A stretch of 64,000 nt of DNA from Capitulum mitella (lineage: Eukaryota > Arthropoda > Thecostraca > Pollicipedomorpha > Pollicipedidae), in assembly GCA_030062745.1 (NCBI GenBank), contig CP099839.1:6743115-6807114 (forward strand), read 5' to 3'. Position 1 is the stretch's first letter, and every line of letters starts with the position of its first letter. The notes beneath the pieces were generated by a model. That model was not told where the DNA came from, did no database searches, and was given only the letters and a program-made list of their open reading frames with translations. Below, piece by piece: positions 1,490 through 62,420 of this stretch. The position numbers and the translations under genes are program-made.

Positions 1490-2130
1490 ATGAGCGAAGG
1501 AAACTCCGACAAAACTTTGGCGCGGCCGACCACGCCTGAGGAACCTGAGCCCCGTCGCCTGGAAGTCGCTGAGGCCCATCCTCGACCAGCGCGACCGTGC
1601 GGTTCCCGCATAATGAGACTCCCAGACCGAAAACCATGCAAAATGCATGCCATCAATCCCCTTTATGGAGTTCATTGAAAGTCAGCCTTTTTTGCGTCGA
1701 GGTGTCGGCCGATTTATGCCTGCTGGCCGCGGAAGACCTTTCTCGCCCCGGCGGGCTCGTCCGCCTGGCCCAGGGAGCCCCGCTGAAGGACCTCCTAATT
1801 GCTTCTCACATTTATCCCGGCCGGCCGATTCGGGATAACGGCGAGTTGATGTGCGGCCATTATGAGGCCTTTAATTGTCTCCAACTGGGACGGCTGAAAC
1901 TTGATATATCGTCGGCGCTGACGACGCCGACATGCGGTCGGCCCGGCCGGCCAGGGCTCGGAGAGAATCGCGGGAAATGTCCGCGCGGAATGGCCTCCCG
2001 GCTTGACGCGGGCGGCCGAGCGGCTGCCGGGAGCTTTGCATGCAAATGCATTCTTTTGGCGCGAAAGACGGATGGCCTCCGGACGCGCGCCCGGGTCGAT
2101 CCAGGGCCCGCTCCTAATTAAGCATCAGCT
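1490..2130. promoter_or_regulatory. GC/CpG island with A+T cores, candidate regulatory element
   Basis: Abrupt change from A+T-rich flanks to CpG-dense sequence with two GGCCGGCC octamers (1819-1826, 1945-1952). Embedded A+T cores include ggccgatttat (1707-1717), cattatgaggcctttaattg from about 1858, a palindromic octamer at 2035-2046 and cctaattaagc near 2113. An inverted repeat ttatcccg/cgggataa (1812-1819, 1831-1838) flanks one GGCCGGCC. Homeodomain- and POU-like cores suggest an enhancer or Polycomb-type element; function is inferred. Confidence 0.4.
2035..2047. promoter_or_regulatory. Palindromic POU octamer-like site
   Basis: TTTGCATGCAAA (2035-2046) is a perfect palindrome, and ATGCAAAT (2040-2047) is an exact POU octamer. 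It lies at the edge of the GC island at 1490-2130. Confidence 0.35.
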
Positions 2131-3774
2131 CGAGAGGAAAAGTCGCGGCCCTGTTACGGACTTTGCATTCAAATTCACTGTTATCATTCCTAATCTGGAA
2201 TTGGGTCCGCTTTCTTGGCGACGGAAACGAACAGTCTGATAACGCCGAGTTTCTTTCAATCAGATTTGTCTGTCACCGTGCAAAAATCTTTGCTCGTGTG
2301 GGGTATTAACTGTAGACGCATGAAACATGGGGAAAAATGAAGTCGAATTTTAGTTGTTGCGGAAACGGAGGACTACCTCGCCAACCTAGTACAGCAGTTA
2401 CGAAATCTCAGAATTATAAACAGCGCCAGCCCTCGAGCATGAACGTAAAATCCATGCACGCTTCTGTAACCTCAAGCGAGGAGAATTCATCCTCGCTTAC
2501 GACTCCCTGGAGGATCGTGCGTTAATAAGTATTGCAAACATAGGAGCATTTCTTACTTCTGGAGCCTTTCTCGGCGAGCAGTGCTGGTCGAAACTACCTG
2601 AGGAGCCATAAATTACCCGGGAGGAATTATCTTTGAGTCTGCCGGTGACGTATGGGCTGGGAGCAATATATGAAACGGCCCCCTTGGGCACCGAAAGCAA
2701 TCTAAAGAAACAACATTAAAATTTCGGGAAACTATGGGCTCTGAATGGTTTTAAACACACAACAGAGGTGCCGTAGAGTGCGCGACAGTGTTGGAACAAC
2801 TCTGGCGCAGTTCACTTCAATCGCAGACGTTATATCGTAGTCATTGGCATTGATTTGGAGCAAGGCAGTCAGAACGCTTACTCAACACCACCGGTTTAAT
2901 TTCAACAGCACTTGAGGTGCTTTCCGCTAGATTTAATTTTGCTGATGCATTCCTCCAAGCTGATCCTATCAAGAAAACATTGGCGAATTCGGAACAGACG
3001 TGCAAGCAATCTGCTAATGCACGCTGATTATTTTGCTGCCGCGATGTTAGCCATTAGGACGTGGCACGGAATTTGTTATCGCGTTTGCCATTAACATTCC
3101 CTGCCTGTCTTACAAATTATGCAGTCGTCACACACCTAAAAATCTGCTCAAATCAGGCGGTTTTCAAACAAGCTAGTATTCGCTTGAAAAAGCATGTGCT
3201 GAGCCGTTGCAACCCGAGACCATACCAGGATCTCTTTAAATAACGGCCGAATACCGTTCCCATGATTATTAGATGAGGCTAGTGATCGGGTCACGGACAA
3301 CCTGCATCCGCCCGTCCCCTCACCGCTGTACCGGAGCTTCTCGTCCAGATTTATCGGACAGAAATAGAGTGCCGAAAAAATAAAAATGTTTACTTTGTTC
3401 AGTACCGAATATTGCAATTTTTGTATGTGTCTTTTGTAAACCTACTAATGATGGTTAGTGCATGCATGACATGAAGCGGACGTTGTAAACAGGCTGTCAG
3501 TGGTCGTGCACTCTATGACTGACCGGTCAGTCATTTAGACATATAGAAGTGCGGTTTGATAGACTGCACGACTGCGTCTCTTTGCTACTCTGTTTCACGC
3601 CGTCGTGTGCTCAAAGACGGCCAAACACACCTGAATGTTCAAGAAGCTTCATCACCTGCTACACAAACACACAACACCTTCCGAGGCCGTAGGCCGGTCC
3701 CACCGCCGACCATTTTCTCCGGGTATTTTTCTTCTTAGCTTCAGATAAGATCCCATAAATCGTCCGCAGCGGCG
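2131..3774. other. A+T-rich intergenic DNA, no gene seen
   Basis: No coding or RNA gene supported. The only structure noted is the 20-bp palindrome at 3515-3534. Confidence 0.55.
3515..3534. repeat. Perfect 20-bp palindrome
   Basis: ATGACTGACCGGTCAGTCAT reads identically on both strands with no spacer. Confidence 0.7.
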
Positions 3775-3965
3775 TAATAAAGCAATACATCATTCCGTGA
3801 GGGCCGCGCCGCAAGTTTGGCCACTCCCTAGAATGAGATAATAATACCGGCGAGGCCGCGACGGCGGCGGCGGCTGCGGAGGTGCCTCGCGCGGCCGCCC
3901 AAAGAACGAATCGCTTCCGCGGCGCCGTCGATCGATGCTGATATCGCAGCCTGGGTCGTCGATGA
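3775..3965. promoter_or_regulatory. Short GC island
   Basis: CpG-dense block with a (cgg)n-like core near 3860-3880 and ATCGATCGAT-type sequence near 3930. Flanks are A+T-rich. No coding potential recognised. Confidence 0.3.
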
Positions 3966-8860: not shown

Positions 8861-11159
8861 TACCTCCAGGCGAGACAAGCCGTAGTCTGACGTGTGTAGG
8901 TAGCCATGTGCAAAGCCATTCCCCAAAAGCAGGTTATGGTTAGAATTTGGGAAGACGGTTAGGTGGGAGGGTACGACACGGTACGGGTACCCCTCGCATT
9001 CCCGCTTTATGTTGCGTACACATACATGGCAATGCATGAATTAGCGCGGTGGGACTTAAAGAAGCTTTCAGAAGAAGGAACATTAGCAATCCTGAACAAA
9101 CTTTGTCTTCCATGTTTCGAAGGCTGCAGTGTTACTACTTCTTCCTTTGAATCAAACCAGCCTACTGCATGTTTCGTGGCTTCGCTCACGGAGACCCGTA
9201 ACATGCTTTGACAGATTTTTGCAAATGTTGCTGTATTTGTTTCCCCTCAGCCCTTATCACAGCAACACACCAACCTCCAGGAGTGCCCGAGTTTGCTACT
9301 GCCAGGCTTTTGAAACAAAAAGAATCGTTGCCAGCGTCTGAAACACGATTACGACGGGGGAATTCGGTTCCAAAGACTCTGTGGCAGTCTTTCATGCAAT
9401 TTTGTGTGCATTTGGGTCGCTTAATACATTCGAGTTTTAAGACTTATGGTGGGCCAACAGTACGCCCAGCAAACCGCAGACATCTGTTTCGCAGAATGAG
9501 CGCCACGAAACCGTCCAAAAGTCTAACTCGGTGCGAGCCATTGCCCTGGTTAGAAGGCACCAGGACCAGCAGCATACGTGACCGCGCTAAACCGTCAGAC
9601 TAACAGACAATTTTTGTTTGTTGTTGCGCCGGACGTGCGGAGCCGTCTTTTGTTATGTACGTAATAATAGCACAGCAAAAGTTATAATTCCCGATACATG
9701 CCTGAATACACATGCTTAGGGTCGCTTGATAAATACCACACGACTAATGCGATTTTGAGAATAGTTTCGACGAGATATAAAGTCCTTCACGGCAGTTAAT
9801 CGCCATCGAAATGCTCGTTGGTATGGGACGGGAATTCTGAGCCAATTATATCGACGTATTTTTTCTCCATTTCATCATTACATGAACTTACAAACGAGCT
9901 TTTGACCTTGTTCTGATGCAAAATAACTTATGGGACCTCACTAAGATTTTTAGAAACAAAATATGAGTGAATGGTACTTGGGCTTAACTATGCTAGTTTT
10001 TGCCGTTGACTTCCGTCGTGTCTATGGTAAAAGTTTCCACTGCTGTACTCCAAAGTTCAACGGCCATGTAGGGACGACCAGGAATACTGCATTTAACGGA
10101 TGCAAGCATTAATGAAATACCTCTGGGGGCTTTTATTGATGCATACTACTTTTTCCGTCTTTGGATGCCGAAAAACATCCCATTGTGTTATCAAATATCC
10201 CATGCAGCAAAAAAGAACACACCATCGTAGAGCAGAGCACAAAGGTCACCCTGGGCTTTGGAAGTTGTCGACGCAAGGGACAGCAGGCTTAAGTGGATTG
10301 TGGACATCGAAGTACGAAGTGCTAACAGACTACTTCTCATATGCCAAGGGACATGACAGAACGATAATGGATTCAAGCCAAGGGTCTGTTTGACAGTCAT
10401 GGCCGTCATAAGTCGTTCAAGCGCCAAGATATGTCAAGGAAATAGATGTTGAACAGTAGACCGTGCTTCGGGTGTTGAAGCCCTTGCTCGGCGCGAAATG
10501 GATTATAGTTTAGGTAATTGTCCAAGATGACATTTCGCTTTCGAGAGACGGCTTTTTCTGACAAAAGCTTTGCATTGGTTATCGGAAAAACCGACATCTA
10601 AGCCATAATTGGCGTTTTGTAATGTAACCATGTCTTGTAAAGAAGGCGCTACCCGGTTTTCGCAATGACACCAGGGCATCATGCGCAAAATTTAGAACTG
10701 ACGGCATCCCATCAAATCTGGTGCATAAAGTCTGCGTCAGACTGAATTCAGCTTTACTATCTTAAGTGCACTGGCTTTAAGTTGACATTTACCTGTGCCA
10801 AATACCTATTTTCCAAATGGGGTAAGCCAGTGTGTGACTACGTATTCTCTGAAAGTGATGTATGTGTGACGCAAAAGACTTCTGAACCCGATAAGTTCCC
10901 TTATTCATATTCAAACTCTCGATGCTTTTGTGTATTTAAAAATGGGACAGTTCTTGTTACAATTCTTACGCAATTTACATCACAAAACTTACAGCTTACA
11001 TATTTCTCGCCGTACAGGGTCCAAGGCCGACGCATGCATTATACACCAAAGCTTCCAGATTCCGAAGCAATAACCACTTGGCCAACCCTGACAATGGCGC
11101 CCGGTCTTAATTGCACGCGTCGAGCAGTGCGTTCATCAAGGGCTCGTTATTACCAATCT
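8861..11159. other. A+T-rich intergenic DNA, no gene seen
   Basis: No domain, repeat or RNA gene recognised in any frame. Confidence 0.55.
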
Positions 11160-11760
11160 GCATAAGAATGTCTGCGGCCGCGGCGCCTGTTCGCTGCCGG
11201 GACGAACGTGCTCGCGGAGCACGAGGCGGCACTCCGATTGGCGATCCCCGCGGCCGACCGCGGCCGCAGCCGGCGACCGGCCCGCGGCCACCGCCCTAAA
11301 CACCATCATCCGACGCCAATTATGAGCGGCCGGCAATTTTCGCCGCCAGTATTACCGCCAACAAAACAAAGCCCCGCCGCGTCCGAGTAAGCCATTACGC
11401 GGCGCGCGGCCGGCTCCGAGAAGCGGAAGTCGTTGCTTGCGCCGCCGCCGTGCGGGGACCGGCCGGCCGTCACCGACCGCACGGGGCCGCATAAATTATC
11501 GGAGCATCTTCGCGAGGTACGGCGCGTCGCCGCGCGAGTTATGGCGCCCGGCTATCAGCCGTGATATCGGAGCCGGACTGGGGTCGGCCGGCCGGGCGCC
11601 GCGCCGGCCGGCGGAGCGGGGCCGAGCCGGGCCGAGCGGCCCACCTGCCGCCGCCGCCGGCCGACGGAGCGGGACCGGCGGCAGGGGCGGCAGGCTCCTG
11701 GGGCCGATTCGCCGTCTCAGAGGCGGAATGTGCGTTGGAATGAAGTGGTGCCGGCTGACG
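11160..11760. promoter_or_regulatory. GC island with A+T cores
   Basis: One of the strongest islands of the 3' flank. It contains cgccaattatgagcgg near 11315, ccgcataaattatcgg near 11488, gagttatggcg near 11537 and repeated ggccggcc strings. The A+T cores stand out against almost pure G+C, as in the other islands. Confidence 0.4.
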
Positions 11761-12534
11761 AATTGCGCGCACCGTTGCAAAACTGATCCGAGAAAAGTGG
11801 CGTGGAGACGAAACGAAAAGTCTTCCTGTCATTTGTGTCTTAATTGAGCGCAGTGTTTGCAGGAAATGGGCCGGTGGGACGGCCTTTAGGTTCTTCCTCA
11901 TTATCGTTTCTTTGAAAACACCAGCACGTCTCTTCGTTAGTCTCGCTCCAAAGTTTCTCCCCTGTTCTGACAGTGCCGGTGTTAGTCGGTTTCCGTATCA
12001 TTGGTGGACACGATGTGGTCCAGCTTAATCTGGCTAAAACTTACCAACAATTTCATAAAGCTGAAAGGGATTGTACCTAGACCAAGGAAATCAACCATTT
12101 GTGAAAACATTAAAGAACTTTAGCATGAAGTAAAAGCCAGCAAAAAGAGGAATAATGTACTGCAAATGTCGGCCGAACTCCAGCTAAAGTAGTGCTGTCT
12201 TAAAATTTCGGACTATCAAATGCTCTGTCGCCGGTGATTCCTTTAAAGAAGTACGACAGGAACGCAGGCTTGCTTAAATAATGTCAAGACAACCATCCTC
12301 GCATAGGAAATAGGCATTCCTTGCATTTGCAATGTGCAAGGCAGCTCCAGATGGAATGCGTCATGCATTCTTTAGCACGGTCCTTGAAAGCTTTTGCGTT
12401 GGTTTCCTTTAAAGCCCAAGCCATAAATATTGAATGCGTGAGCCACGGTCGCCAGGAACAAAACGAAGCCCAACAAACGACTTTCACGCCTTCCCACGAT
12501 GCCGGGGCCATTGAAACCCCCTTCCGACCCTGAC
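11761..12534. other. Intergenic DNA, no gene seen
   Basis: Ordinary A+T-rich sequence between two islands. Confidence 0.55.
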
Positions 12535-13210
12535 TGTCACTTGCGGCCACCTCCAGCGGCCCAAGTCCGGACGGCGGCGGCGCGCTCCGCTCCGGTCTGA
12601 AGCCGAACCCTTCCGGCATGCGTCCGCGGAGTCGATGCATCTCGCCGGACGACGGAAGGCCGCGGAACGGGCGTTGGCCGGCCGGCGATCGGCTCCGCTC
12701 CGCCGACCGGAGGACGGCTTTTATGGGCGGTCCGGCTAATTTTCAGAGCCGGCGGATCGGCGGCGCCGGGCGGGCCGCCGGCCGAGACGGGCCGGGCCCG
12801 AACGACCCTTTCACGGCATCGCGCCGGCGGAGAGAAGGGAACACGCCATAAAGACGCCGCGAGCCGGCGCGTCTAATCTGCGCCACCCCGAATCTGTGTC
12901 AATTGGTCTGATGGAGACGCGGCGTCGCGTCGGGCGGCGGCCGGCCGCCTCGCGCCGCCGTCTGCGGCCGCTCGCACCTGGCCGGCGCCGCCGCGCGGCG
13001 CGCAGCCGTCGCTCGAGACGACCTGGCGCTCGTTAGCTGCACCGAGCCGTGCCGACGTCGCCGGTGGGCCGCCGCGTGCCAGGGTCGCCGCGCGTCGCGG
13101 ACACCAGACGGAATTGCGTCCCACAAAGCGTCGGCGAGCGGCGGCGCGACGCGGCGCCGTCGACGCCGACGTTGTCACCCTCTGTCGCCTCCGACGCAAA
13201 ACGCAGTCTC
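12535..13210. promoter_or_regulatory. GC island with TTTATGGC-type cores
   Basis: CpG-dense. Cores include ggcttttatgggcgg near 12716, ccggctaattttcag near 12732 and gccataaa (12845-12852). Several overlapping open frames on both strands have no recognisable domain. Confidence 0.4.
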
Positions 13211-14222
13211 CGCCACTCGTTGCTGCTGCATTTTGGCGCTAAAATCTGGCGCCCTGTTGCCATGGAAACGTTTCGAGTATTGATCAGACCCACAAAGAAT
13301 CTGTCAGCTGCATCTAATCAACATGACGAATGGCCAGAGTAGATCAGGGGGATTGTTATAACTGGGAAAGTCGTAAAGCTTGTGCCAAGACATTCGGCCT
13401 CCTGAAATTATGGGCTTGCGATGCAGATAAAATCGTATTTCATTTTCTTCTCCAGACAACGCAGACGCTCTTTGTGTGGTCGACATCATAGTGCCTCTTG
13501 ACATGGCCCTGCAAGTGGCGTCGCAATGGGGTTGGGGACGAAATAAAGCTTATGGAGTCACTACCAGCGGACCTTCTTGAAAACAAGAGGCAACCTAAAT
13601 AAGTACACGTTCATGTCATGACGATGTGAGAGAAGACCCTTCGTCGTTTCATATGTTATGAGAAATTTGTGAAACTCACACTGATCCAAAGGCGCTTTTA
13701 GCTAGGCGAAAACTCACACTATAGTGCCGATGACCTCAGACCTCAAAGCGTGGGTTTATTGCGAACACCATGAAACAGAGCTGCAACATTCACGCTTTAT
13801 ATAGTTAACTTATTCTTTGTTTCAGTACGGAAACAGTTTCTGATAACTGGAAGGGAAACAACACTCGGTTTACCGGCCTGTGGTAATTTCGCACTTGCAT
13901 TCATGCGCTCTTTTTCATTGCATTGCCCTTTGGATTGAGTGAGGTTGTAAGACTAAAACGCGTTTCTTCACGGTGCGTTATGAGTATTCGAACACCTGCA
14001 CAACTTTCAAAAGTGTACCGAAATTTCTAGAGCGATCGCAGATTGAAGATTTGAAGTTTGTAGGCTGCCAGTTATACATTATGCAAGATAATATTTTAAA
14101 GAACACGAACTGTATAATCTAAACTGGTAACGTAATCACCAGGAAAACTAACCAGGGCCTTCGCTAAAGGTTATGTACATCATTCAAGTTACCAGAACTG
14201 TGATTAAATATGAAGGGATTAC

Positions 14223-14426: not shown

Positions 14427-15739
14427 ATATGCGGATCATAAACGATCTGAAGGGAGCTTTGACGTGAAAAAGACGGCATCATGGAGCGATAATGAACTTT
14501 CCTTTTCGTGAGTCATCAGCCCAGGACGAACATGCTCAATCTGGACTAATAATAAGCATACATATTTGGTCGGATTTGACATGATTTAGACCAGTAAATC
14601 GTAGAGAGTGAAGCGCACGAGGGGAGGGGCAGACCTAAACTTCATCAGTTTATGAAAATAACTGCTGCCAAGCCTGACTGCTTCAAAACCCCGGAACCCT
14701 CTCGCCTTTTGAACATCCTTAGCCGTCATACAAAATGCGTTATAACTGGATCAAGAAGCACCCACGCGCCGTTACATTTCGAATTTTAATTTCTGCTTCA
14801 CCACAGAGAATGTAGTGAAGAGACGATTTTCCAGAATGAAAACTGCTGCACATCAGTGATACCAAAGAGAGCTGTAACTGCTTGCAACGTAAGATGTTAA
14901 CTACTTGACGGACATTTTCTGTTATCTGTCACATTAGTTGTGATACATATGAATGAAGAAGCCCTCATCGGGCACTTGAAATTTTGGAAACTGCAGAAAG
15001 ATCAGGGGCAAGAATTTTTGGTACTTTTCAGAAATTTCTAGTCCTAAAACCTTTTGTTTTCGAGATCTTTGTAAATCTTTTTATGTAAAGACAACCCGTG
15101 TGTTCTTAAACAAAAAGAGATCTACCATGAAAACTCATCCAGCTCCCGCTTCATAATAATGCTTCTGAATGATTTTCATGGTTTATCACATACCAAGATT
15201 ATGAAACCTCTTCCCATCCAAAAGTATCACCATGATGTTTCTAAAGCCCCAGGTCAGGTTGTAACTCTGCAGATAAATATGAATGTACGCCCTATAAACA
15301 CTGTTCTCAGTCTTGGTCTACGTACCGAACATAAAGGTAAGCACTTGCCATTTCTGTTCCTCTCTCATGCTTTTCCACTTTGGCCTCATCGAGCTCAGAT
15401 CGCGAAAGTGAAATTCTAACCTTGGACAAAGTGCCTTTAAGGACCTCGGGCGATCGGAGACATTACTGTCATCGATTTGCGTTTTATGCACTCTTGAAAC
15501 GATGATACTGCCTTTATAGTTAAACGCCCTGCAGTGAATCCAAGACATGCCAAATAATGTCGCAGTTATTCCTTCTATCGCCTAAAAAATAACAAGACTC
15601 CGATACAACAAAGCGGCATTGGAACGGGGCCGAAATACTACCTCGCGCCTCTCTTTCAGTGACGTTATTCCGACCTAAATCGTTACAATGCCTCCCAACG
15701 ACGACCACAGCCTACAGACGGCCGTCTGAACCAGATTCC

Positions 15740-16090
15740 GCAGCTGAGCTATGCCAGCGGCCGTCACTGTCGACACTGCCGCGCGCCCGGCGGCGGCGGC
15801 CCGCCAGTACAACCCCACGTCATCCGACGCCGGCCGACCGGCGACTTGCCGCCGCAACGACCGGCCGGCGAGTGGCGGCCATGTTGGAAAGAGTGCGCGC
15901 CAGGCCCCGCCCACCGGCTGGTGCTCCTCCGCGCCGGTCGCGTGGTCTTGGCGCGCCGCTGCGCCACGGCGGCACGCTCGAATTCCGCCGCGTGCCGGCC
16001 GCGTCGGCGCGACGGGTCGGGCGCTGGCACGGCGGCACGGCGGTACGGCGATACGCAGCGGTACCGGACGGCGTATGGGGTACACATCAG
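15740..16090. promoter_or_regulatory. GC island downstream of the Ubx stop
   Basis: CpG-dense block about 0.5-0.9 kb after the stop codon. It contains GCCATGTTGG (15878-15887), a YY1/Pho-like site. If the 3' UTR reaches 14.2 kb, this island would be transcribed. Confidence 0.35.
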
Positions 16091-16609
16091 TGGAGTTGGT
16101 GGTAACGTCGGCGCTTCAACGGACTCTGGTGACGTGAAGTCTACAGTGGTCTGACTGTAGGCGAACTCATGCAGGGAGCGGAAGGATGGCAGCACTAGTA
16201 TCTTGAGCAAACACATGCACCTTTGGGAACTCTTTCGACACTGAACTTAAAAGGGGTGGGAGGTGACTCCCGGTTTTCAACGCTGGCTAAAAAGTCCATG
16301 AATCAAACAGCTGAAGTGATCTCCTTCGAGGATCAGAGACCTTGAGTGACGAAAGAACTCAGGTGTCCAAGACATCAGCTTGAAACTACTGGACATTTGG
16401 AAAGCATTTGACTTATCAAGTGACCAGGAGGGCAATGGCTTGCGTGGACTCAACGCTAGTGGTTTCCTGCCTACTTCCTGAGCATCCATGCACCCGTTCT
16501 ACAGCATGCCAAACACCCGTCCACCGGCCGGCTCCAACGGACTTTTGACGGACGGCAACGCGCGTCCTCCGACGGACTCACCTTTAAAATGCAGAAAGAA
16601 CATTATCGT

Positions 16610-22376
<5,767 letters not shown>

Positions 22377-22380
22377 TTAA

Positions 22381-27849: not shown

Positions 27850-28690
27850 GAGGCAGGGGAGCGGCCGCGGCGGAGCCCGGCTCTGAAAAAATCGCCATCA
27901 CGCCGCCCAGCTCGATTACAGCGGAGTCGCGGTTCGCCCCGGCGGCGGGGCGATACGTGATACGGCTCCGTCCAATGGAGATTTACCCAGCAATTTCATG
28001 CAATAAAGACATAATGCAAATGTCGCTTATAAATCGGACTCACAGCGTGCATTCCACTTACAGGCACATGACATCCATATTAGTGGTCGTCATTAGCATC
28101 AGCGCGACGGCTCGCCGGAAATCTGACGCCGGTCGCAAAGTGGAGCGCGGCAGGCAAGACGGCGCCCGTCGGCGGGCGGACGACGGCTGACGGCGTGTTT
28201 CCTCCGTTTCAGGATCCCGCAGACGGCGCGCGCTCCGGCCGGGCGCAGAGGACGACCTGGCGCGGCTATTTCACTCAAGATCGCATCGGCCTGTCGCCGC
28301 TCGCGGAATATGTGAACGGCTTAGGCTGGATTACGGCGGCGGGTCAGCCTGCCGGGCGTCGCTCTCGGCGGCTGCTATACGGCGCGCTCGCGGCGGTCTC
28401 TCGCGCGCGCCCGCGGCGGCGGCGGCGGCGGCGGGGTCGCCGCTCGGCGGGGTTATTTGCTGTCGCCCTTGAGCGCTCGGACGGGGCCCGTGTCGCGCCG
28501 AGAGGAATGGCCGCGCCTCCATGTTCGGCCGCTGTCCTTGCAGCGCGCCGCCACATACATCGCGGCCGGCAGACAACGGTTGCAGCTCTGGCGACGCGAA
28601 ATTTATTCCGTGATATTTCAAATGTTCAGACGGATCCGCGGAACCCGACAAAGAACGCTCCTAAATCCCGGCGGCGGCAGTGACAGACCA
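27850..28690. promoter_or_regulatory. GC island with POU octamer and A+T core
   Basis: Two CpG-dense arms flank an A+T core at about 27950-28100. The core has an exact ATGCAAAT (28014-28021) followed by gcttataaatcgg. The right arm has a (gcg)n tract near 28418-28436. This is the first of four closely spaced islands at 27.5-30.3 kb. Confidence 0.4.
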
Positions 28691-28880: not shown

Positions 28881-29109
28881 CTTTGCGTTATTCCCAGTAA
28901 TTAGTAACACATGCAACATTTCTGAAGGTTGGACCGTGAGCCTGTTATTAGTCACAATTCAGAGACCATGAAAGCCTTTGCCCATACTTTAATGACAACA
29001 GATAGCTCTGCAAATACGCCCCAGTTGCATGATACTGCTATATCATTACTGAATAAAATTGCACGATGTAAAATTTTGATTGCCTTCTACGTGACTGACA
29101 ACCATTAAA

Positions 29110-29625: not shown

Positions 29626-29639
29626 TTTGAACGCCGATT

Positions 29640-35170: not shown

Positions 35171-35514
35171 TGAAGTGTTATAACTGGGTTCATCTATTCG
35201 CCAGTCCCAGCGACCAGTGGGGTAACATCTGTCCCGAAATATAAAATTAAATTTAAGCGAACAGATTTTGCACAATTTCAACGTTGTGTCCATTTACAAC
35301 CTCCAGATTGGAAGCAATGAAAAGACAGCACGTCCTCCACGGGGTACAGGAGCTGGTCGCCATCGTTCGAATGGTCGATGACTGGAACATGTAAAAATCG
35401 GTATCAACCAGCGGTAATTTTCGGTTTGAAAATATAGCATAGCGACGATGCATAAGCCCCATTTGCATTTCTTTATTACTTAAAGCTGCATCACATCAAC
35501 AATGGACGGAAATT

Positions 35515-35705
35515 GAAATCAAAGTCCGGCCTCCCGGGCGGCGGCCGGCCGGCCGACTTTGCCGCCGCCATGTTGGCCGGCCGCCGCAGGCGAGCGCAGC
35601 GGACGGGCGGCGCCGCCGCGGCAGCCATCTTGAATAGTTTACACAGCTGGCGCGGAGCGCGGCCGGGCGCGGCCGGCAGCAAATCCACCGTGTGCGTTGC
35701 TTTGG
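35515..35705. promoter_or_regulatory. GC island with paired YY1/Pho-like sites
   Basis: Contains CCGCCATGTTGG (GCCAT at 35567-35571) and AGCCATCTTG (GCCATCTTG at 35624-35632) in the same orientation, 57 bp apart, both matching the YY1/Pleiohomeotic core GCCATNTT. Candidate Polycomb-response type element. Confidence 0.35.
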
Positions 35706-38189: not shown

Positions 38190-38730
38190 TCCCCTGCACC
38201 GGAGGGTGGCTGGCGGCGCCGAGGGCGCGCCGCAGGAATATGTGCCCGGCCGACTCGCGCCCGGCTCCCCCGGGAGATGACGCTTACGGCAGACAGCCGA
38301 AGCCGCTCTTTATTCCGCGACGCCCGCCGTGGAAGCCGTCTCTCCGCTCCGCACATAAATTCCTCCAGATCATATCAGAGGCGGCGGCGAGGCGGAGGCG
38401 CCGGTGAGCGGCCGGCGACGCACGCGCTCCTGCGCCGCGGCGACGGACCTCCGTGACGTGCGTGATAAATCCGCCCGCACGGCCGGCGGCTATTTCGCGC
38501 GGCCGGCCGCCTGGCACCGGCCGCGCTGACGTGGCCCGCGCACGCTCGCCGGCCGCGGCGGCGCCCCTGCCCGGCGTCAGGGGCCACAGGGACCGGCACC
38601 GCTCTCTGGCGGCGCGGCCAGGGGCGTCATGCACGGCCGCGGAGGCGCGCCGCCCCTGCGCCCGACCAGTTCTGCCCGGCCGCCATTTGCCGGCGCCCGC
38701 TCTGTTTTTGCAGCGGCAAGATTTACGACT
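38190..38730. promoter_or_regulatory. GC island
   Basis: CpG-dense with cores gcacataaattcctcc near 38350 and cgtgataaatccgcc near 38460, and GCCATTTG at 38682. It is bordered on the right by A+T-rich gatttacgactttaatac. Confidence 0.4.
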
Positions 38731-38849
38731 TTAATACTTTCTAATCAAGACGGCTAAGGATGATGAATGGCCGCAGCAAGTGTAATTACAGACGCTCATT
38801 ATTTCTCAGCTTTGCCAACGGGGAAATAATTCGATGAGAATTGTCAAAA

Positions 38850-39260
38850 GAGGGAAAGGCGGCGGCGGCGGCCGGCCTCGGCGCGTCGGCCGGTCGGTCG
38901 GCCTGGCGGTCGGCGGGAGGGCGGGCGCGGCCAGCCGCCCGGTCGGCGGGCGCCGCGGGGCGCCCACACTTTCGGCTGCTGCCGGCACTCAGCTGCCGAA
39001 CCGCGCCGCGCCGCCAAAAGAGACATAAATTTGCCGCCAAGATCGGCCTTTTAACGAATCCATTTGCGTTAAGTGTGGCCGACGGTGCCCCCCGGTAACC
39101 AGACGAAGCTAACGCCGCTGACGGATGTCCCCGAGGAGGCTCGTCAGGCCCAGAAACAAGCCCTTCCGAGGGTCCGCGGCTTCGCGAGCCGGAAATGAGC
39201 GTGGCGGCGCCGGTTCCCGGTGTCTTATCGGCCCGCGGAACGCCCCCAGGCCATTGTGGC
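38850..39260. promoter_or_regulatory. GC island
   Basis: CpG-dense with repeated cggtcgg strings. Cores are gacataaatttgccgcc near 39023 and ggccgccatctgataacg near 39258. Confidence 0.35.
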
Positions 39261-39349
39261 CGCCATCTGATAACGTTCAACTTCTCAGCCTGATGAACGC
39301 GCGCTTCTGTGCGCAGAAAATGAGAGCGTCGCTGTAATTTTGGGGCCGA

Positions 39350-39770
39350 TTGATTGCAGACTTAAGGCGCCTGCCGGCTCGTCGAGGGATGGCAACAGAA
39401 CACGGAGTCGCAGACGCCTCGGAGGGCCATACTCGGCGCGGTAACAGAGCAGCGACTGCCGGGATGACGACGCACGGACTCGGATGACTGCGTTAAAGAA
39501 CAGAGTTGCACGTTGACGTCGGCGACGACCGCCAAATTGCGCATTCAGAACGCTCTCACGGATCAATACGGAAGGGGGAGGGGACGTCCGGCAGTGCCCA
39601 CGCTTGCATGCGATTGGAGCCACTTGAGGCCGTTGGAGCCAGCTGTAAATGGCGACGGGCGCATTATCGAGCAGCATTCGGAGCGGCGGGCGGCGGCAGC
39701 GGGCGCTGACCGGCCGCCATTGCATGACTGTTGACACGAAGGGCTTGCCAGCTCCGTGATTACGGCCGCT
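39350..39770. promoter_or_regulatory. Moderate GC island
   Basis: Less extreme than its neighbours. It contains tgtaaatggcgac near 39643 and gccgctaattgcac near 39765. Confidence 0.25.
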
Positions 39771-39899
39771 AATTGCACATGTTCCCTGCAAGATTTGTGC
39801 AGCCGAGTCTAATATTCGAGAGGCATGCACCCACGTGCAGTCCTGAATTCAAAATAGCCGGTTCGCCTTTCTGTTAAGCCGTTTTAGATTAATTTAACG

Positions 39900-52760: not shown

Positions 52761-53929
52761 TGTGCGCTGATTTGTGAAAGTTTGCCTCTTGGACGGGAAG
52801 CATAACAGAGCACTACCTTCCCCTTTAGCAAAAAAGGCGAAATTCTGGGTCGATCATTGGCGGCATTACTATATGGCAAACTGGGCATCACACACGATGA
52901 TACAAATGGCTGAAAAGTCATTTTCGTACGATATGCTAATGTCCTCAAACACACACGAGCCACTCACCTTTTCGACGACATTCAAGGCCTCCAAATTCAA
53001 AAGGGGACGACAAGGCAAGAAAGTTGCGCTGACTAAAAACGTCAACAAAATCAACATCACATATGTTTCGTGTATATTACTTCATTACATGTGCAAGGAA
53101 AGATCTTGACAGGAGTATTGGCGTGGCAAGTAATCCAACAGGAGGTGAAGTAGCTTCCTTATAACCAACAAGCCCTTAGAGTGCGTGCTAAGACATTCAC
53201 AAATTGTTGGGGTTCAGAACCCTCAAATACGAAGGGTCTCCAACCATACGCACATCAGAACATTAATGCACATTCGTCTCATGCGAGACCATGCACAATG
53301 ATTTTGAAAAATGGACTTGCACGAACACAGAGAAGCGCCTTATGTTTGCAATTACAGAAGACCATTGCATAACTACGTGCTTCCAAAACCAGATGTGAAG
53401 CCAGCAAATTTGACATTTGGTTGATAACAGCCTTGAGTCAAACCACGATGGAACTAAGAGCCGTCGCTCTTGAATGCGCATCTTCTACATGTATAATTTT
53501 GATAACTAATGATGCAAAAAAATCCTCCGAAACAGTGGCAATCGACCGTAAAGTCTCGATGGGTGCACACGCTCGTGCAAGTCATCGACAGAAAGCAGTC
53601 GGATGGCGGCAGAGGCTTTGTCAGGCGGGGTGCAGGCCGTGGCTGGAGCAGCGGTGGCTGGCTCTTCAGCGGAGAGACAAAGGTAGCGGTTGAAACTCCC
53701 CAGGCTCGTAATCGCCAGGCGTAAACCATCCGAGCGCAGCCACTTTGGCTTCTTTTGCGCGCCTAAAAGGCGGTCGGCGTGGGTCTTGCAGTCACACATG
53801 TCGGGAAAATTAATGACCTGCCTATGTGCTGACCGGAAAAAAAGACAAGAATAAAGGCGCATGAAAACGCGCGCATGAATCAAATTCTGCATTATCCGTG
53901 CATAGCTCCTCGGTCTCAGACACAGCCAC
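52761..53929. other. Intron sequence, no gene seen
   Basis: A+T-rich, with a moderately GC-rich part near 53560-53720. No domain recognised. Confidence 0.45.
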
Positions 53930-55650
53930 ACTTGCTTTGTTCCTCGAACCGTCCCGTTTGCCGGCCCGCGCCCTGGCGGCGACGGCACGTCCGAAAATCC
54001 GGTCACGCCCAGTCTCAGCCGGGCTGAGCCGCCAAAAAGCCGGCGGCCAGGTGGGGCGGGGACGCGGGGAGCACGTGTCGGCACCGGCGGGAGGCCGCTT
54101 CCGGTCCGGAATGCATCCCCGTGTCGCGCCGGCTCATTCGGACCTGTAAATCTCCCTTATCTCGGCGGTGGGCTTTTGTGGAGCGCGTAAGCGCGGCCGA
54201 TTTATCTGAAATGGAATCGGCGGCTCGGACGGGCGTCGGCCGGCGAATTTCGGCGCCGACGGGCCAGCCGGGCCAGCATCGATCGGCGGGCCAGTGCGCC
54301 GCGCCGCGATGATTTAACGCCGCCGTTATTAATTGCACGGCGCGCCGGCGTCGCGTCCGCGCCGGGTCAGCCGCCGGCCTCGGACGCCGCGGCCGCGACC
54401 GGCGCGGTAAATCAACTCGAGCACCGCGCGCGACGTTGTCGTCCTGAGCTCCGGGCCATTAGGTCACCGCAGAACGGGCGTCGGTAACGAAAGCGAGCGG
54501 CCGACCGCGCCGCCGGCCCCGTAATGACGAAGGGGCACGGCGGACGGCCATTATCATCACGTAATTATCAATCGGCCGGGTCGGCGCCGGCGGCGGCGCG
54601 GTTTTTTTCGCCAGTTTGATTAAGTCGAGTGCACGGGCCGGCGGGCGCGCGGCCGAGCGGCGCCCGGGGGCCGCGCCGTACCGACGCGGGCATTCGCCGC
54701 GCGCCGCGCTCGCCAGCGCCGCGCGGCGCCGGCCGCCGCGGCCCGAGCTAGGTCCCCGCTGAGTGCCCACCGCCCAGACGGTGCCCGTCAGGCCCGGTCG
54801 GCCGGCGTGGCCGCGCTGCAGGTAGGCGGCGGCGGCTGACGCTGCCACCGCGAGCACGACGGCGGCCGACGGGCGCGCGTCGTAAACAAGCGGCCACCGC
54901 CGCGCCCCGGCCGGCCGCGCGCCCTGCGCTAAATCTCGGCCTGCACGAATTAAGCAATCGGCTGTCATTCGGCAGGCGGTGCAGCCGGGCGGCGGGCGCG
55001 CTCATGAATGGGCCGGCGCCTCTCCGCGGCGAGGTCGGCGCGGCGCGGCGCGGCGCGCTTCGCCGCCTGGCCGTGCGACGCGGAGTCACGGCGGCGGCCG
55101 CCGCTCGGGAAAGCCGTCGGCGCGGCGGCGCGGCGCGCGTTTTCCAGGCGGCGACCCGTTTCGGCCGCCGCCGCCGCCAGACGCCGCGCCCCGGCCCGGA
55201 CGCGAAATTGCACATGAACGCCCGTACGTAGACAAATAAAACCAGTCACCCGCCGGCTTTACAGCGCGCGTCACGAATCCGCGACCAGCGGCGGCGGGGC
55301 CAGCCGCCGGTCCGACTTAATTTCAGCCTGCACCGGCCGGCAATCATCTATGCTTAGCCGCAATTACCGGCATCATCGCGGCGCCATTACGCTCGAATAT
55401 CACCGGGCGGCGCGACCCGGCCGGGCCGCATGTCATCGCGGCCGGGCCGACGGGCCGCGGCCGCCACCCCGACGGCCGGCCGGCCCGGCGGACCGACTGG
55501 TCTCGCCGGCGTCCTCGTAGCGGCTCGGCGTCCAGAGGCCAGAGGCCGCCGCTCCGATGTCCGGCCGCCGCCGGACGGCCGGCTGGACACGGCTTCACAC
55601 GGCTCGCGTGCGGCGGACACATCGGTCACCGCAGAGCGTGGTGCAGCTCA
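53930..55650. promoter_or_regulatory. Largest GC island of the intron, about 1.7 kb
   Basis: In 55081-55140, 51 of 60 bases are G or C, with about 17 CpG. A+T cores are ggccgatttat (54195-54205), gttattaattgcacgg near 54326, gccattatcatcacgtaatt near 54549 with atcaatcgg, gtttgattaag near 54614, gaattaagcaatcgg near 54947 and gccattacg near 55382. Long overlapping frames on both strands reflect lack of stops and carry no domain. Confidence 0.45.
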
Positions 55651-55675
55651 AATGCACGTGCAATAATTTCATTGG

Positions 55676-55800
55676 CTTCTCACGTTCTCTCCTCTGTCTC
55701 TCTCCCTTTCCCTCACTCTATCGGGGCTCTTTGCCCCTCCCTCTCCTTCTTTGTCTGTCCCCGCCAATGTTTTCGGTTCCTCGATATTTTCCACTCCCTT
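55676..55800. promoter_or_regulatory. Polypyrimidine tract (GAGAG-rich on the minus strand)
   Basis: Rich in tctctc and ccctccctctcc; on the minus strand it gives several GAGAG motifs, the GAGA-factor core. It lies directly beside the 1.7 kb GC island. Confidence 0.35.
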
Positions 55801-57260: not shown

Positions 57261-58689
57261 AATGGGGGGCGAGGGCATTCTTTCATCATAATAACGAATG
57301 GCTGGGTAACCGAAGATGCGCTAATGAGTTTTCTGAAATTGTGTAATTTACGGTCGAAAAGGAACGTCTTTTTTAGCAGCCACGGCCAACTGCCTCCAGA
57401 GAAAGTGAAATCGTTGTCGAAGGTTGGTCTCTCGCGCTGTCCGAGGGTGATACCGTTGATGCACGAAATGAATGCAATGAGAATATGGACTACAGAGTGG
57501 TCCTGCTGCTTACACAGACTGGCATGTGGGCGCCAAATACGCGTTGCGGTGTCACAAGCAGCACCTCTGGAAGAACTTTGTAGCTCCTATTGCAATGCCT
57601 GGCCCCCACGGTCACCGCCGAAGAGCGGACGTTGGAGGCGTCACTGAATTTGACGCCGGAAACTAGCACGTTGACGTCGTCCCTGCTTTTTCTACCCCGC
57701 CAAATGTACCATGGCACATTAAATGTCAAGAGGTGTCCCATCACGGCCCATTAACGCAACCCGAATGGCCAACACCGAGCCCGTAAAGACCCGCAAACTA
57801 TCACTCAAACGTCGATTTTCAGAAGACAATGCAGCCCCACGCCGAGTAAAAACGGTCCCGGCGGGTGCGTAAACAAGTGTTGAAAGCCTGTGTTTGGAAA
57901 ACGAGCGACATATCGCAAGCGACACGGTCAAACCTTTTGCATCGATCTAAGGGCCCGACAACCCTTTCGGATGTTTCAATGCGAGGTAATGGGAACATGA
58001 ACGTTTTCTACTTGCCGTGTCCATTTCAAATTGGCCAATTCGTCTTCAGCTACAAATTAATTATCCCTTAGCCTGGAATCCCCGTAACGGCCCATGGTGA
58101 AGATAAATCTCCCGTTTCACATACCATCACAATTTATGTGACAAAATAATTTAAGGCGAGTCTGCGTCTAATCCTTGTTCAAACTACCTCTGGAGAGGGT
58201 ATTTAGGATAAACCGGCGAAACAGAAACAGCGCTGTCTTTCAACAGCTCTGCGTGCACGGGAAACATGTTGACGGCGTTACGTGTTTATGCCTTATACAG
58301 CTCACCCCGCGTATATAATTTTCAATTTCGCAATAAATAAGAACGTGTGAATGAAGACAGCCGATGTGGTACCCCACAGGTACAAACATAAACACATATA
58401 CATCACGCCCGGAATGAAATCAGAGCAGATGATTACGAGGCAAGCCATGCAGTTGGTTCATGACACATCTGCGCCCGGGTCAAGCCAGCATCCCAGGCCA
58501 GACAACACTATATTTGCAGGCTGACAGGGGCTAAACAGCGCCCTGCAAATTCGGGCAACTCAAAATAAACAGCATATTTCTGCCAGCTCGTTCGCCGCCT
58601 TTCAAGTCGCAGGGCAGCCGCTCAAACAGAACGGCAATTCGTCCGTCTGTGATCTGGGCCGCTGTTTTAAAAGCAAAATAAACCGATCC
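57261..58689. other. A+T-rich intron sequence, no gene seen
   Basis: Nothing recognised. Confidence 0.5.
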
Positions 58690-60530
58690 GCCGACAGCTG
58701 TCGGGGACCCGGCGGCCGCGACCGCCAGCTGACTGTCGGCCGGCCGGCGGCGCGCGCGAAACATCTGCGGGCGCCGCGCCCGGCCGCCGCCCGCCGGTCA
58801 AGCCGCGCTCTCAGCTGGCCGTGCTTAACGAGGTCGCAATTAATCCGCGCCCTGGCCCAGTGACGGGTCGGCAGCCGGCGGCCGAATAATTCATTGTGTT
58901 GTTATGTAGATTATCTGTCGCGGCGACGCGGCCGCCCCCGGCGCCGCCGTCGCCGAGAAACAGCGCCGAGCGCCGGCCCGGCTTTCGCTAACTATTGCGA
59001 TATGAATAAACCAGGAGGGCGTGGCGGCATCAGTCTTTGTTCGGGCGCCGCGCGTGTCGCCGCGGCGTGTTGTCATTCGCGGCACTTGGTGACCGGAGCC
59101 GGGCCGGACACGGGCACGGCGGCCCCGGGAGGCCCGTCGACGATGCCGTTTACATTGATCGTCATTTGCAGGTTGCCATTGCGCCTGGCCGGGCGGCCGT
59201 CGCGGCCGCCGCGCCGCCGCCGCCGTCAAATGCTTTACGACCCGCCGCGCCTGGAATATGGAGGGCCGCGGCCGCGACGCGTTACAAATATGCAGCCGAC
59301 GGCGCTCCCCGCCGCGTCACGCGCGCGGGGCGGCGGCGGTCGCGGCGGCCCGCCGGCCGGCGCGGCGCCTCCGCCCGGGCCGGGCCGGGAGGCGGCCGCC
59401 GCGATCCACCCCGCTGACGGCCGAGCGCGGGAGCGGGCCGGCCTCGGGGCGCCAGCGGACGGGGCCTGCCCGCTCCCGGCCGCCCACGCATGGCTGCCGT
59501 CCAGCGCCACACCGCCCACTGGTGGCGGCCGCCCAGTCCGGAGCTGCCTGCGCGCGGCAGGTGTCCAATCCCGGCCGCCGGCACGCGGATGACCCGTTCC
59601 CTCCTGGTGACAGGCGCTGGAAGCCAGATGCCGGGACAAGCGGGGTCCTCCGTCCCCGGCGGTCTGAGCGCCGTACGGGCGCTGCCTGTAGCTCGCGAGA
59701 CCGCTGGCTGCGCTGCTCCCAGCTACAAAACCAGGGAGGCGCTGAAAATTTGGCTGTCCGCAAGCGGTAGCTGTCCCGGTCCCAGCCGCCCAGTTACCAG
59801 CTGCCGATACTCGGGAGCTGCCTAGTCGACCCTCCACGGAAGACAGGGAGCCAGCCTTTTTACCCCTTTCAAAGAGGCCGGCATCCGAAACCCTCAGTAC
59901 AGTTCTGGGGCCGCCGGACGTTGGGCCGGGACCCTCGGCGTCAGATCTGGGGCTGCCCGGACGTTGGGCCGGGACTTTCAACGTCAGATTTGGGGCCGCC
60001 GGACGTTGGGCCGGGACCCTCGGCGTCAGATCTGGGGCCGCCGGACGTTTGGCCGGGACTTTCAACGTCAGATTTGGGGCCGCCGGACGTTGGGCCGGGA
60101 CCCTCGGCCTCAGATCTGGGGCCGCTGGACGTTTGGCCGGGACCCTCGGCGCGTCAGACCAGGGGCCGCCGACAGCCGGGAGCCGGCGGCCGGGCGTGGC
60201 CGCGCAGCCGCCCGGCCGGACGCCGCGCTGGGGGAGCTCCGCTCCCGTGATGGACGACGCGGCCAGTAATACCATATAATTTGGTGTCGGCTGGCCGGCC
60301 GGCTCGGCTGCCGGCCGGCCGGCCGCCGCGCCCGCTGTTTGCACACGGCCGCGCCGGCCGCGGGAGACGGCACGGCCGGGCCGGGCGGCCGGGCGCCGGC
60401 CGGCCGACCGGCCAGCGGGACGGCCCCCGCCGCGACGACAGCCGCTCGTTCTTTGTGCGGCGACAAGAAAAGGCCATCCCATCTCGGTCCGGCGGCCGAT
60501 CGGACGGCCGGAGACTGCTCAGCCTATAAA
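58690..60530. promoter_or_regulatory. Large GC island, about 1.8 kb
   Basis: CpG-dense throughout. Few A+T cores: gccgaataattcattgtg near 58880, gcgatatgaataaacc near 58997 and accatataatttggtg near 60270. It contains a 42-bp minisatellite. A 415-codon minus-strand frame (59235-60482) spans it; the frame is Pro/Ala/Arg/Gly-rich, contains the minisatellite and has no recognisable domain, so it is not called a gene. Confidence 0.4.
59907..60170. repeat. 42-bp minisatellite with 84-bp alternation
   Basis: Six to seven copies starting with gggg at 59907, 59949, 59992, 60034, 60076, 60118 and 60162. Units alternate between ccctcggcgtcagatct and ctttcaacgtcagattt endings over the first five, then lose the alternation. 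Confidence 0.9.
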
Positions 60531-61859
60531 ACGATGATTTACGGACGAATTTCCGACTAAAATTGGGTGGCAAAAACATGCGGAGACGCCGCCCGCAGTA
60601 AATCACGCCCTCCATTTCTTGCAATTCGCACCGGAACAAGACAATTCACGCCCCGCTGAGAGTGGCCAGGAGGTAAAAAGCCCTGGAGAATATGAGCGTC
60701 CTGCTCTCACGCTGCCGCCAAGAAAGCCGACTACAGCTGCCGTGCTGCCGGAGCCAAGTTCTGGATTAAGTCAGACCTGGCAAATGACTGATGCACGTGC
60801 GGTGAGGTGCAGGTTATGTAACGTGGAAGCACTGTGAGCACTAATATTTTCAACTCAGTTTATCGCTGAGGTCTAGCAGACTCATTTCTGAAATAAGTCT
60901 GTCAGCGCAAGCAGGCAATTTAGAATTCACTTAGGGAAATTTATAACCATCTGCCGCACCATATTTTTGTATCAATTAGCTGACATAGGGTAGATTTGGC
61001 AACGACTTGGTTTTGGCATACAGAAGAAGACACAAAATGAATTAAACCCTAACAAATTGGGCTTTCTACCCAGCTGAGGTCCAAGACTCGCTTAAAACAC
61101 CACGAAGAGCTCGCTTCTGCAAAAGTTGGGGCCTTGGCAGGCGTGGTTCAATTTGGCGAGATACCCCTGCGCGTGCCGTTCAAACCGTCTGGCTCCTTCT
61201 CATTGGGGAGACAATATTTCATGTGTTAGAGCGCTAATGGAAACTAAAACTAAGTAATAACAATGAAAAATCGCCTTCACAGGCACCGCTGCTCTGGCGA
61301 ACCCATTTCAGATGTCACTTTGGAAATCACCATGTAATGAATAGACATTTTATCACCGCTTTATTGCCTCTTCGAGATATATTGATCAGTATTGAAACAA
61401 TGTGGCAGACCTGATAAAGCCAAAAGACGAGAGAAAAAGAAGAGACAGAACTCTGCTGAACTTTTAAGACGATGAACGCAGAAACTCGCTGGAAGCAATT
61501 AGAAGGGGCTATGATTCGAACGTGCAGCTATGAGCAGTGATATCACAGGCCCATGGAATGGAACTACAATGTTGCCGCTGCTTATCAAATGCAATGCTGC
61601 CGCTGCCACGCTGCGGTCGTTGAATCAGCATTCGCTCGAAAACGCGGAGGTCGCCGTCGCTACCTGTCGGACGACTCCTCGGGTTTGAGCCGCCGTATGA
61701 GGCCTTTATGTTTACCCCCCAGCCATCCAGAAACACCACCTCCATTATTTCTGCCGATGTGTTTGGAGATTAATTCCTGCGCCCGTAACGGCCATCCTAC
61801 CAATAAAACTCGTGTTTGGGTAAACTTTTACGGCCCACTTGTGTCAATACTAATGAATA
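60531..61859. other. A+T-rich intron sequence, no gene seen
   Basis: Nothing recognised in either strand. Confidence 0.5.
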
Positions 61860-62420
61860 TTGAGCGTCTAACTGCCGGCGGCGGGCGGCCATTGGTCGGC
61901 GGCGGGGCCGCGGCCGGCGCCGCAGCATCCGCAGCCGAAAGGTGCGCGGCGATTGGGACGGGCCGTAATAAAGCTATCCGTCGGCGGCGGCCCGGCAGCC
62001 AACGGGCGGCCACGCACACTTAGCGTTCACGCAACGGGCTGCATAATGGTGAGGCCGGCTCGTCACCCGCGCATTACGCCGTCGAAACCCGCCGTTACCG
62101 GGCGGGTGCGATGGTTAGACGACCGCAGCCACGCACGTTGCAATTATGCAGTTAAGGACGGCGACTCAGACGGCATAATTGCGGCCCTGGGTATTGATCA
62201 GGGGCCGCCGCGCGGAGCGGCCGGCGGCACCCTCCTCCGTGCGCGTTTTGGAGGCTGGCCCAGTACAGTGTTTGGCAGAGATCAATGGGCACCCGGTGCT
62301 GATGAGCGGCAGTGGAATGTCGCGGCGGCCGCGGCGGCGGGCCGGCCCGGCGCGATAAGCCGTCGGCCGGGCCGCCGCGGCCGGCCGGCCGACACCGCGC
62401 CGCGTATATCAGTCTAACGA
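61860..62420. promoter_or_regulatory. GC island near exon 1
   Basis: CpG-dense, with cores gccgtaataaagctatcc near 61962, cgttgcaattatgcagttaa near 62136 and cggcataattgcgg near 62171, plus gggtattgatcagggg. It lies about 0.8 kb downstream of the exon 1 donor, a common place for promoter-proximal control elements. Confidence 0.4.

Follow-up and report, generated by a model that had tools for sequence, protein, structure and literature searches.

The window analyzed here, 64,000 nucleotides of the genome of the thoracican barnacle Capitulum mitella (C1:6743115-6807114; genome searched, 477,042,490 bp in 16 contigs), is the main Ubx locus of this animal (Ubx1) and is punctuated by islands of G+C-rich DNA. 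Six noncoding blocks of this locus, five intronic and one in the 3′ flank, recur with order and strand preserved at a second Ubx locus on contig C10 (Ubx2). Because these conserved blocks are shared with the second Ubx, part of the Ubx islands are probably control switches, and we lean toward the view that a minority of the islands (6 of the 28 noncoding ones) are Ubx cis-regulatory modules, candidate elements of enhancer or Polycomb-element character set in CpG-rich DNA, with the rest unproven and maybe compositional. A previous interpretation of this DNA from its letters (the sequence-only reading) had proposed that the islands are the cis-regulatory or chromatin modules of Ubx; this is supported, in the form of conserved blocks, for 6 of the 28 and is unproven for 22. 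The compositional feature it described is real, was over-read as Hox-specific CpG islands, and has its value in the six blocks shared by two Ubx loci.

Noncoding blocks shared by two Ubx loci

The assignment of the window to an arthropod Hox locus containing Ubx, as already claimed in the sequence-only reading, is borne out by a homeobox exon whose top solved-structure match is Drosophila Ubx (4cyc, E 1.7e-44) and by a YPWM motif in exon 1. Contig C1 carries nine homeobox matches between 6.18 and 7.04 Mb, all in one orientation and thus Hox-cluster-like, and C10 carries a second Antp-like homeobox at C10:28055373 and a second Ubx homeobox at C10:28093573 (the label Antp for Antp-like loci was assigned from position and reading). 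The protein encoded by the Ubx2 copy of exon 1 (C10:28143812-28144270) is 79% identical to that of Ubx1 exon 1. According to the sections of PMC11331182 used here, C. mitella has 16 chromosomes; one of them carries an intact Hox cluster and another an additional Antp-Ubx pair, which is attributed to whole-genome duplication and is also found in Pollicipes.

To describe noncoding conservation, the window was compared with the Ubx2 region (C10:28080001-28170000). The first 50 kb of this region, searched by blastn, matched the window in the homeobox exon, in the collinear noncoding blocks, in a repeat and, out of order, at one GC-rich place; the reversed control returned nothing. A more sensitive search also aligned GC-rich stretches by chance, its reversed control giving a GC-rich match with E 7.6e-10, so the counting of all GC-rich local alignments as conservation was dropped and at least eight A/T letters were demanded per match. 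An order-preserving map then contained seven matches of at least 32 bits, compared to none in each of eight control maps; four of the seven are counted blocks, two lie in the segment 17391-17725 and one lies at 57154-57220 (45.5 bits, 81% G+C; left uncounted). Since the stronger matches serve as map anchors, the evidence rests on shared order and strand together with the empty controls. Three further collinear matches of 29–31 bits, at 50709, 18557 and 58136, were likewise left uncounted. The 3′-flank block (15870-15933), which falls outside the mapped interval, is the only match of at least 36 bits in that flank, where minus-strand and reversed controls gave none (best reversed, 34.6), and an overlapping alignment reached E 2e-6 in the sensitive search. 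The same E value (2e-6) was obtained in that search for block 38694-38829, and the sole reversed-control match below 60% G+C had E 0.81. Noncoding sequence is conserved in order and orientation beyond chance at the two loci, as is asked of cis-regulatory elements. The conserved parts are short and word-like, and the GC-rich filler between them has diverged between Ubx1 and Ubx2.

The segment 17391-17725 was initially a candidate enhancer and was dropped from that role, its strongest part (17658-17725) being a 36-nt Ubx microexon that lies between exon 1 and the homeobox exon, has consensus splice sites and is predicted from sequence. Because of these splice sites and of a reading phase that matches, 17658-17725 was taken out of the regulatory set. 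The Ubx2 counterpart of the microexon (C10:28094380-28094415) carries one conservative change (E to D).

The blocks were found to be concentrated in islands, defined as segments built from 200-bp windows at a G+C threshold of 60%. All five intronic blocks lie in islands in the window (permutation P 0.0044) and four of five do so at Ubx2 (P 0.0143); block 34585-34719 sits at the edge of island 34641-35160, with 59% of its length inside. At a threshold of 55% the corresponding P-values are 0.018 and 0.054, and at 65% (four of five in each copy) they are 0.016 and 0.006. With the microexon region still included, five of six blocks are in islands in each copy (window P 0.016). The 3′ block lies within an island in both copies, bringing the totals to 6/6 in the window and 5/6 at Ubx2.

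Composition and motifs of the islands

The window contains 30 islands, which together cover 20,560 bp (32% of the window) at GC 0.655 and a CpG observed/expected ratio (o/e) of 1.23, compared to GC 0.444 and CpG o/e 0.93 outside them. The islands of the sequence-only reading therefore exist, in greater number than the roughly twenty it counted, and the example cells it gave are exact (51/60 G+C at 55081-55140, 21/60 at 45601-45660). Its suggestion that GGCCGGCC-type strings build the islands also stands: 33 of the 34 GGCCGGCC words in the window fall within islands, where ~3 are expected under a dinucleotide model and ~19 under a third-order model trained on islands. For the window as a whole, 34 words compare to 11.2 expected, a rate of 0.53/kb versus 0.175/kb genome-wide (83,424 in 477,042,490 bp). 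As for the short A/T cores it placed in most islands, TAAT occurs in 26/30 and TTTAT in 18/30 (either strand), and ATGCAAAT in 2/30 only. TAAT/ATTA is the best retained of 10 A/T-only tetramer classes, with an island/background density of 0.57 (range 0.18–0.57).

We compared these islands with random DNA (twenty 3-kb stretches, the first 20 of 80 drawn places, 60 kb in total), with homeobox loci (the 30 best of 123 matches, including Ubx1 and Ubx2 and two overlapping loci, with the homeobox frame masked and other exons unmasked) and with two stretches chosen for GGCCGGCC richness (L069/L070; C1:436501-446500 and C1:467001-477000), which have GC 0.61 and are full of islands of the same type. 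At equal GC (200-bp windows, GC 0.60–0.72), CpG o/e is 1.23 (1.16–1.30) at Ubx1, 1.23 (1.16–1.31) at eight other Hox loci, 1.14 (1.06–1.21) in L069/L070, 1.09 (1.02–1.14) at 20 non-Hox homeobox loci and 0.96 (0.91–1.02) in random DNA. TpG/CpA shows the opposite trend, with 0.93 (0.87–0.98) at Ubx1, 1.04 at the other Hox loci, 1.04 in L069/L070, 1.06 at Ubx2, 1.08 at the non-Hox homeobox loci and 1.16 (1.10–1.22) in random DNA. Islands of the window carry 1.61 GGCCGGCC words per kb, those of Ubx2 0.96, those of L069/L070 1.69 and random islands 0.34. Furthermore, homeobox loci exceed random DNA both in median island fraction (0.40, n = 29 after one too-short locus was dropped, versus 0.23, n = 20; P 0.014) and in GGCCGGCC (P 0.005). 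The Ubx islands are a CpG-rich, GGCCGGCC-rich subclass of a genome-wide mosaic, common at other homeobox genes and weakly shared by Ubx2.

The idea that the islands are Hox-specific was rejected because of their density in random stretches and of a 64-kb stretch at C1:436,602, off the Hox cluster, that holds 40 GGCCGGCC words; counts of at least 34 occur in 7% of 64-kb windows over the first 505 kb of C1. A brief look at the C1:436,602 stretch (20 kb as open reading frames, with one 71-amino-acid piece searched) recognized no gene, the piece giving Pfam E 0.036, below the cut-off, and E 0.55 for its best solved structure.

The short blocks hold likely transcription-factor sites, namely A/T-rich words of homeodomain type and the PHO/YY1-type word GCCATNTTG. 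This candidate PHO/YY1 word is present in three of the six blocks (at 15878; at 29365; at 35567 and 35624) and, in islands overall, five times against 1.37 expected (P 0.013). In the Ubx2 counterpart of block 35539-35642 the first site reads GCCATGTTAG, and the counterpart of the 35567 site ends TTAG. At 35564 the string GCCGCCATGTTG is similar to the long YY1 site found in vivo, GCCGCCATTTTG, which PMC4901126 gives along with binding of PHO/PHOL to GCCAT. The related word GCCATNTT occurs seven times in Ubx1 islands and seven times in Ubx2 islands compared to permuted means of 1.4 and 1.2, counts that none of the at most 60 permutations reach. TTTATGR shows a similar pattern (seven at Ubx1 and six at Ubx2 versus 2.3 and 2.2 permuted) and is not high in random islands. 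Among the other motifs, GGGCGG (Sp1/KLF-type) exceeds permutations in Ubx1, Ubx2, homeobox and L069/L070 islands (4/5 in random islands), CAGCTG and TGACGT are high in Ubx1, Ubx2 and random islands alike, GAGAGAG is highest in random islands, and TAATTA showed no significant excess in the permutation test of islands.

In vertebrate CpG-island promoters, YY1 sites are directional. All five island GCCATNTTG sites (15878, 29365, 29698, 35567 and 35624) share one orientation, reading AANATGGC on the Ubx-sense strand, and the two outside islands are opposite, a pattern that, together with the enrichment of Sp1/KLF-type words, would fit islands with directional PHO/YY1 sites being promoters that start alternative Ubx or noncoding-RNA transcripts. 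We consider this fairly improbable, given that the sites are few and that the reading frame following those in block 35539 is broken in Ubx2 (as read by eye from the alignment).

Polycomb complexes are targeted by sequence motifs in flies and by CpG islands in vertebrates. At the Ubx islands, recruitment of Polycomb or Trithorax is only hinted at by the excess of PHO/YY1- and Sp1/KLF-type motifs. Under the mechanism we propose for the conserved blocks, homeodomain, PHO/YY1 and Sp1/KLF-type proteins would read the block sites and would switch Ubx expression or maintain it; around the blocks, the GC-rich filler, which diverges freely and contains Sp1/KLF-type words, would keep the site open and undermethylated and would allow CpG-binding (CXXC) and PHO/YY1 proteins to load Trithorax or Polycomb complexes. 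The TpG/CpA of Ubx1 islands (0.93 against 1.16 in GC-matched random DNA) bears only indirectly on whether their CpGs are unmethylated. Each of the remaining islands may be a further module diverged past detection, an unannotated promoter or compositional drift. CXXC domains were found at 5 places in the genome, and the presence of a DNMT1-like gene (methylase pieces at C2:33.056-33.059 Mb and a CXXC domain at C2:33.066 Mb, on the same strand) makes methylation possible. KDM2B binds unmethylated CpG, yet CpG is not unique to Polycomb targets according to the relevant passages of PMC9122586, which suits a core-plus-shell model. A more ambitious version holds that the islands are the barnacle counterpart of orphan CpG islands, that is, CpG-rich, TpG-poor shells around conserved cores at Hox genes that recruit Trithorax and Polycomb both by PHO/YY1 (the fly mode) and by unmethylated CpG (the vertebrate mode) and that have been kept in both Ubx copies since whole-genome duplication; we regard this as speculative and doubtful.

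Evidence against regulatory islands and comparison with known systems

Several observations count against a regulatory role for the islands and are collected here. Island density is as high in random DNA (5.5 per 10 kb, 29% of bp) as in the window (4.7 per 10 kb, 32%), the random control itself being small. Random stretches have a CpG o/e of 1.01, so the genome background is not CpG-depleted, and the islands are enriched in GpC (1.22) to the same degree as in CpG (1.23). At equal GC, Ubx2 islands are closer to random DNA than Ubx1 islands are (CpG o/e 1.06, 0.99–1.13), and the excess at homeobox loci does not settle whether the association is with developmental genes or merely with genes. Two of the 30 islands (16501-17320 and 62961-63760) hold Ubx exons, about half their length being coding, which leaves 28 noncoding islands, and 22 of these, the two largest among them, carry no counted block. 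Among the blocks, 15870-15933 may be 3′ untranslated region (UTR), and 28547 and 29266, only 0.6 kb apart, may be one module, a dependence that the permutations ignore. Block 38694-38829 is the weakest, scoring 27.4 bits in the order-preserving map, a level reached by controls, and the GC richness of its flanks is not kept (0.74 here versus 0.52 at Ubx2). With respect to motifs, 17 were tested by permutation and the PHO-type motif was first noticed in the alignments; GCCATNTT is at chance (one each) in islands of other Hox loci, non-Hox homeobox loci, L069/L070 and random DNA; GCCATNTTG is absent from the islands of 28 other homeobox loci and shows no excess over the whole window (7 versus 4.25 expected, P 0.14); the counts at Ubx1 and Ubx2 are not independent since the two share ancestry; and the GGGCGG control is weak because only 5 permutations exist.

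Part of this evidence would also be expected if the islands were mainly a by-product of base composition, generated by GC-biased gene conversion and slippage of short GC-rich units, with conserved elements inside them by chance or through recombination drawn to open chromatin. The equal island density of random stretches and the equal rise of GpC speak for such an origin, as do minisatellites in or beside islands and an excess of island self-matches at a 3-base lag, a mark of cryptic simple repeats, in all four island sets (z 9.6 to 23; exons add to it in the homeobox set). So does the behavior of GGCCGGCC triplets, which were rejected as island finders: of 631 genome-wide, those among the places listed (C1 to ~29.9 Mb) are scattered along C1, include several minisatellites and do not include the window. 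We nevertheless judge an origin as a by-product unlikely, though a serious contender, because conserved blocks concentrate in islands in both Ubx copies and because Ubx1 and homeobox islands are unlike random DNA at equal GC. The sequence-only reading had named, as evidence that would undo it, islands of equal density far from developmental genes without conservation; the density was indeed the same in random DNA, and conservation is present as the six collinear blocks.

That the islands are repeats or mobile elements is very improbable. The window does carry a 1.24-kb repeat (22371-23609) and two minisatellites, and its self-comparison returned minisatellites and one inverted pair only. A blast of the window against the 20 random and 30 homeobox stretches, with the low-complexity filter on (which hides simple sequence), yielded a single 34-bp island match, at 30360, the other matches being homeobox exons, the Ubx2 microexon region, the 1.24-kb repeat and a 193-bp piece at 24757 outside islands. 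Homologous copies elsewhere, the mark of a transposon or satellite, were not found within the window and these 50 stretches; island DNA was not searched for copies across the whole genome.

The vertebrate CpG-island analogy of the sequence-only reading fails on its defining contrast (CpG o/e 1.01 in random DNA, 0.93 in the window background), since this genome lacks CpG depletion and its islands are as enriched in GpC as in CpG. For the first of these reasons, standard CpG-island thresholds (GC at least 0.55, o/e at least 0.65, 500 bp) are passed by 26% of 500-bp windows in random DNA and by 29% of those in the window. In PMC8285398, CpG islands are considered vertebrate-specific, though invertebrates might have sequences that function equivalently. 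The orphan CpG islands at poised enhancers described there resemble the candidate Ubx modules in that developmental genes have, at distal or intronic positions, a conserved factor-site core next to CpG-rich DNA, and both CXXC domains and a DNMT1-like gene are present in the barnacle; unlike in vertebrates, the barnacle background is not CpG-depleted and the CpG excess is small and matched by GpC. Drosophila Polycomb response elements and dual enhancer elements of this kind, as covered by the excerpts of PMC5393054 and PMC4901126, share with the candidates the Ubx locus, PHO/YY1-type (GCCAT) and Sp1/KLF-type sites and an intronic position, and differ in that the barnacle candidates lie in GC- and CpG-rich islands, that GAGA sites are not specific to Ubx islands and that PHO-type density over the whole window is not raised. 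The collinear blocks of Ubx1 (C1) and Ubx2 (C10), at a second Antp-Ubx pair, also match what is expected of conserved elements in whole-genome-duplication paralogues, and differ in sitting in GC islands; the consulted sections of PMC11331182 do not mention noncoding conservation. Titles dealing with CpG- or GC-rich islands at Hox genes of crustaceans did not turn up in our literature search, a result limited by library and terms and not proof of absence.

With CpG-rich islands, conserved blocks, PHO/YY1-type sites, a DNMT1-like gene and two Ubx loci, this barnacle offers a natural two-copy test of whether shell or core is under selection. The six blocks also provide concrete candidate Ubx modules in a lineage reported, in the same sections of PMC11331182, to be without a working abd-A.

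Features of the window and minor observations

Table 1 Exons, islands and conserved blocks of the Ubx1 window (window coordinates)
Feature	Position	Strand	Remarks
Two GC islands downstream of Ubx	11061..13300 (11061-11840, 12401-13300)	.	
GC island 3′ of Ubx stop	15601..16200	.	3′ UTR or flank
Block with GGCCATGTTGG	15870..15933	+	40.1 bits; Ubx2 counterpart from C10:28091881, likewise in island
Ubx1 homeobox exon, coding through stop	16610..17019	-	4cyc match
Ubx microexon (predicted), 36 nt	17665..17700	-	adds SERANYPAWLQ; flanks TTATTTTCAG and GTAAGC; phase fits both neighbours
GC island, Ubx intron	28021..28680	.	
Block with ATTTATTC, GATATTTCAAA, CTAAAT	28547..28675	.	Ubx2 C10:28110507-28110631; island 28021-28680
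GC island, Ubx intron	29081..30500	.	
Block with CTCATTGGTCG-like, GGCCATTTTGGG, CGATTAAATCG	29266..29436	.	Ubx2 C10:28111210-28111383; island 29081-30500
Block with CCTTGAAATA, ATAAACTCAT, AAAGGGTCAAAG, TTTTATGGA	34585..34719	.	Ubx2 C10:28114425-28114555
Small GC island	35421..35840	.	GC peak conserved: 0.78 here, 0.80 Ubx2 (100-bp cells)
Block with GCCGCCATGTTGG, GCAGCCATCTTGAATAGTTTAC	35539..35642	.	~77% identical; Ubx2 C10:28115684-28115788; island 35421-35840
Large GC island	37921..39840	.	GC 0.65
Block, A/T-rich core	38694..38829	.	GC 0.44; inside island 37921-39840; Ubx2 C10:28117141-28117276, alike, not in island
Large GC island	53861..55760	.	no counted conserved block; holds example cell 55081-55140
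Largest GC island	58561..60600	.	part is a 42-bp minisatellite (59900-60171); no counted conserved block
Ubx1 exon 1, coding	63205..63666	-	start codon assumed; YPWM; 3′ end ATCGCAG/GTCAGT

The islands at 11061-11840 and 12401-13300 contain no conserved block relative to 13.6 kb of Ubx2 3′ flank. Rfam gave no matches in the window at gathering scores, and a tRNA-Gly called by ARAGORN (bacterial settings) at 15930-16013, inside a GC island, was taken as chance.

The repeat at 22371-23609 (~1.24 kb, GC 0.42, not an island) has a 95% identical copy in one random stretch (L040), a partial copy in another (L026) and three copies in the Ubx2 intron (81–95%). The minisatellites in or beside GC islands lie at 40683-41133 (31/62-bp units) and 59900-60171 (42/84-bp units). 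Two segments, 25461-25780 and 50241-50440, are GC-rich yet CpG-poor (o/e ~0.6), unlike the islands, and their surroundings show no TpG/CpA excess; near the former, 24757-24949 matches part of random locus L041 at 80%.

Besides the homeobox exon, a single block is common to the 3-kb Antp1 and Antp2 loci (L016 694-828, L018 521-660; TTTACGTATTTCGTTT on one side). This block was rejected as a case of island conservation, as its DNA is ~40–50% G+C, not island, and lies downstream of the homeobox, perhaps in the 3′ UTR.

Between Ubx and the next homeobox on C1 (C1:7037623), a partial homeobox (profile positions 1–49) is found at C1:6894308-6894454. PMC11331182 places an abd-A remnant between Ubx and Abd-B in C. 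mitella, and the partial homeobox may be this remnant.

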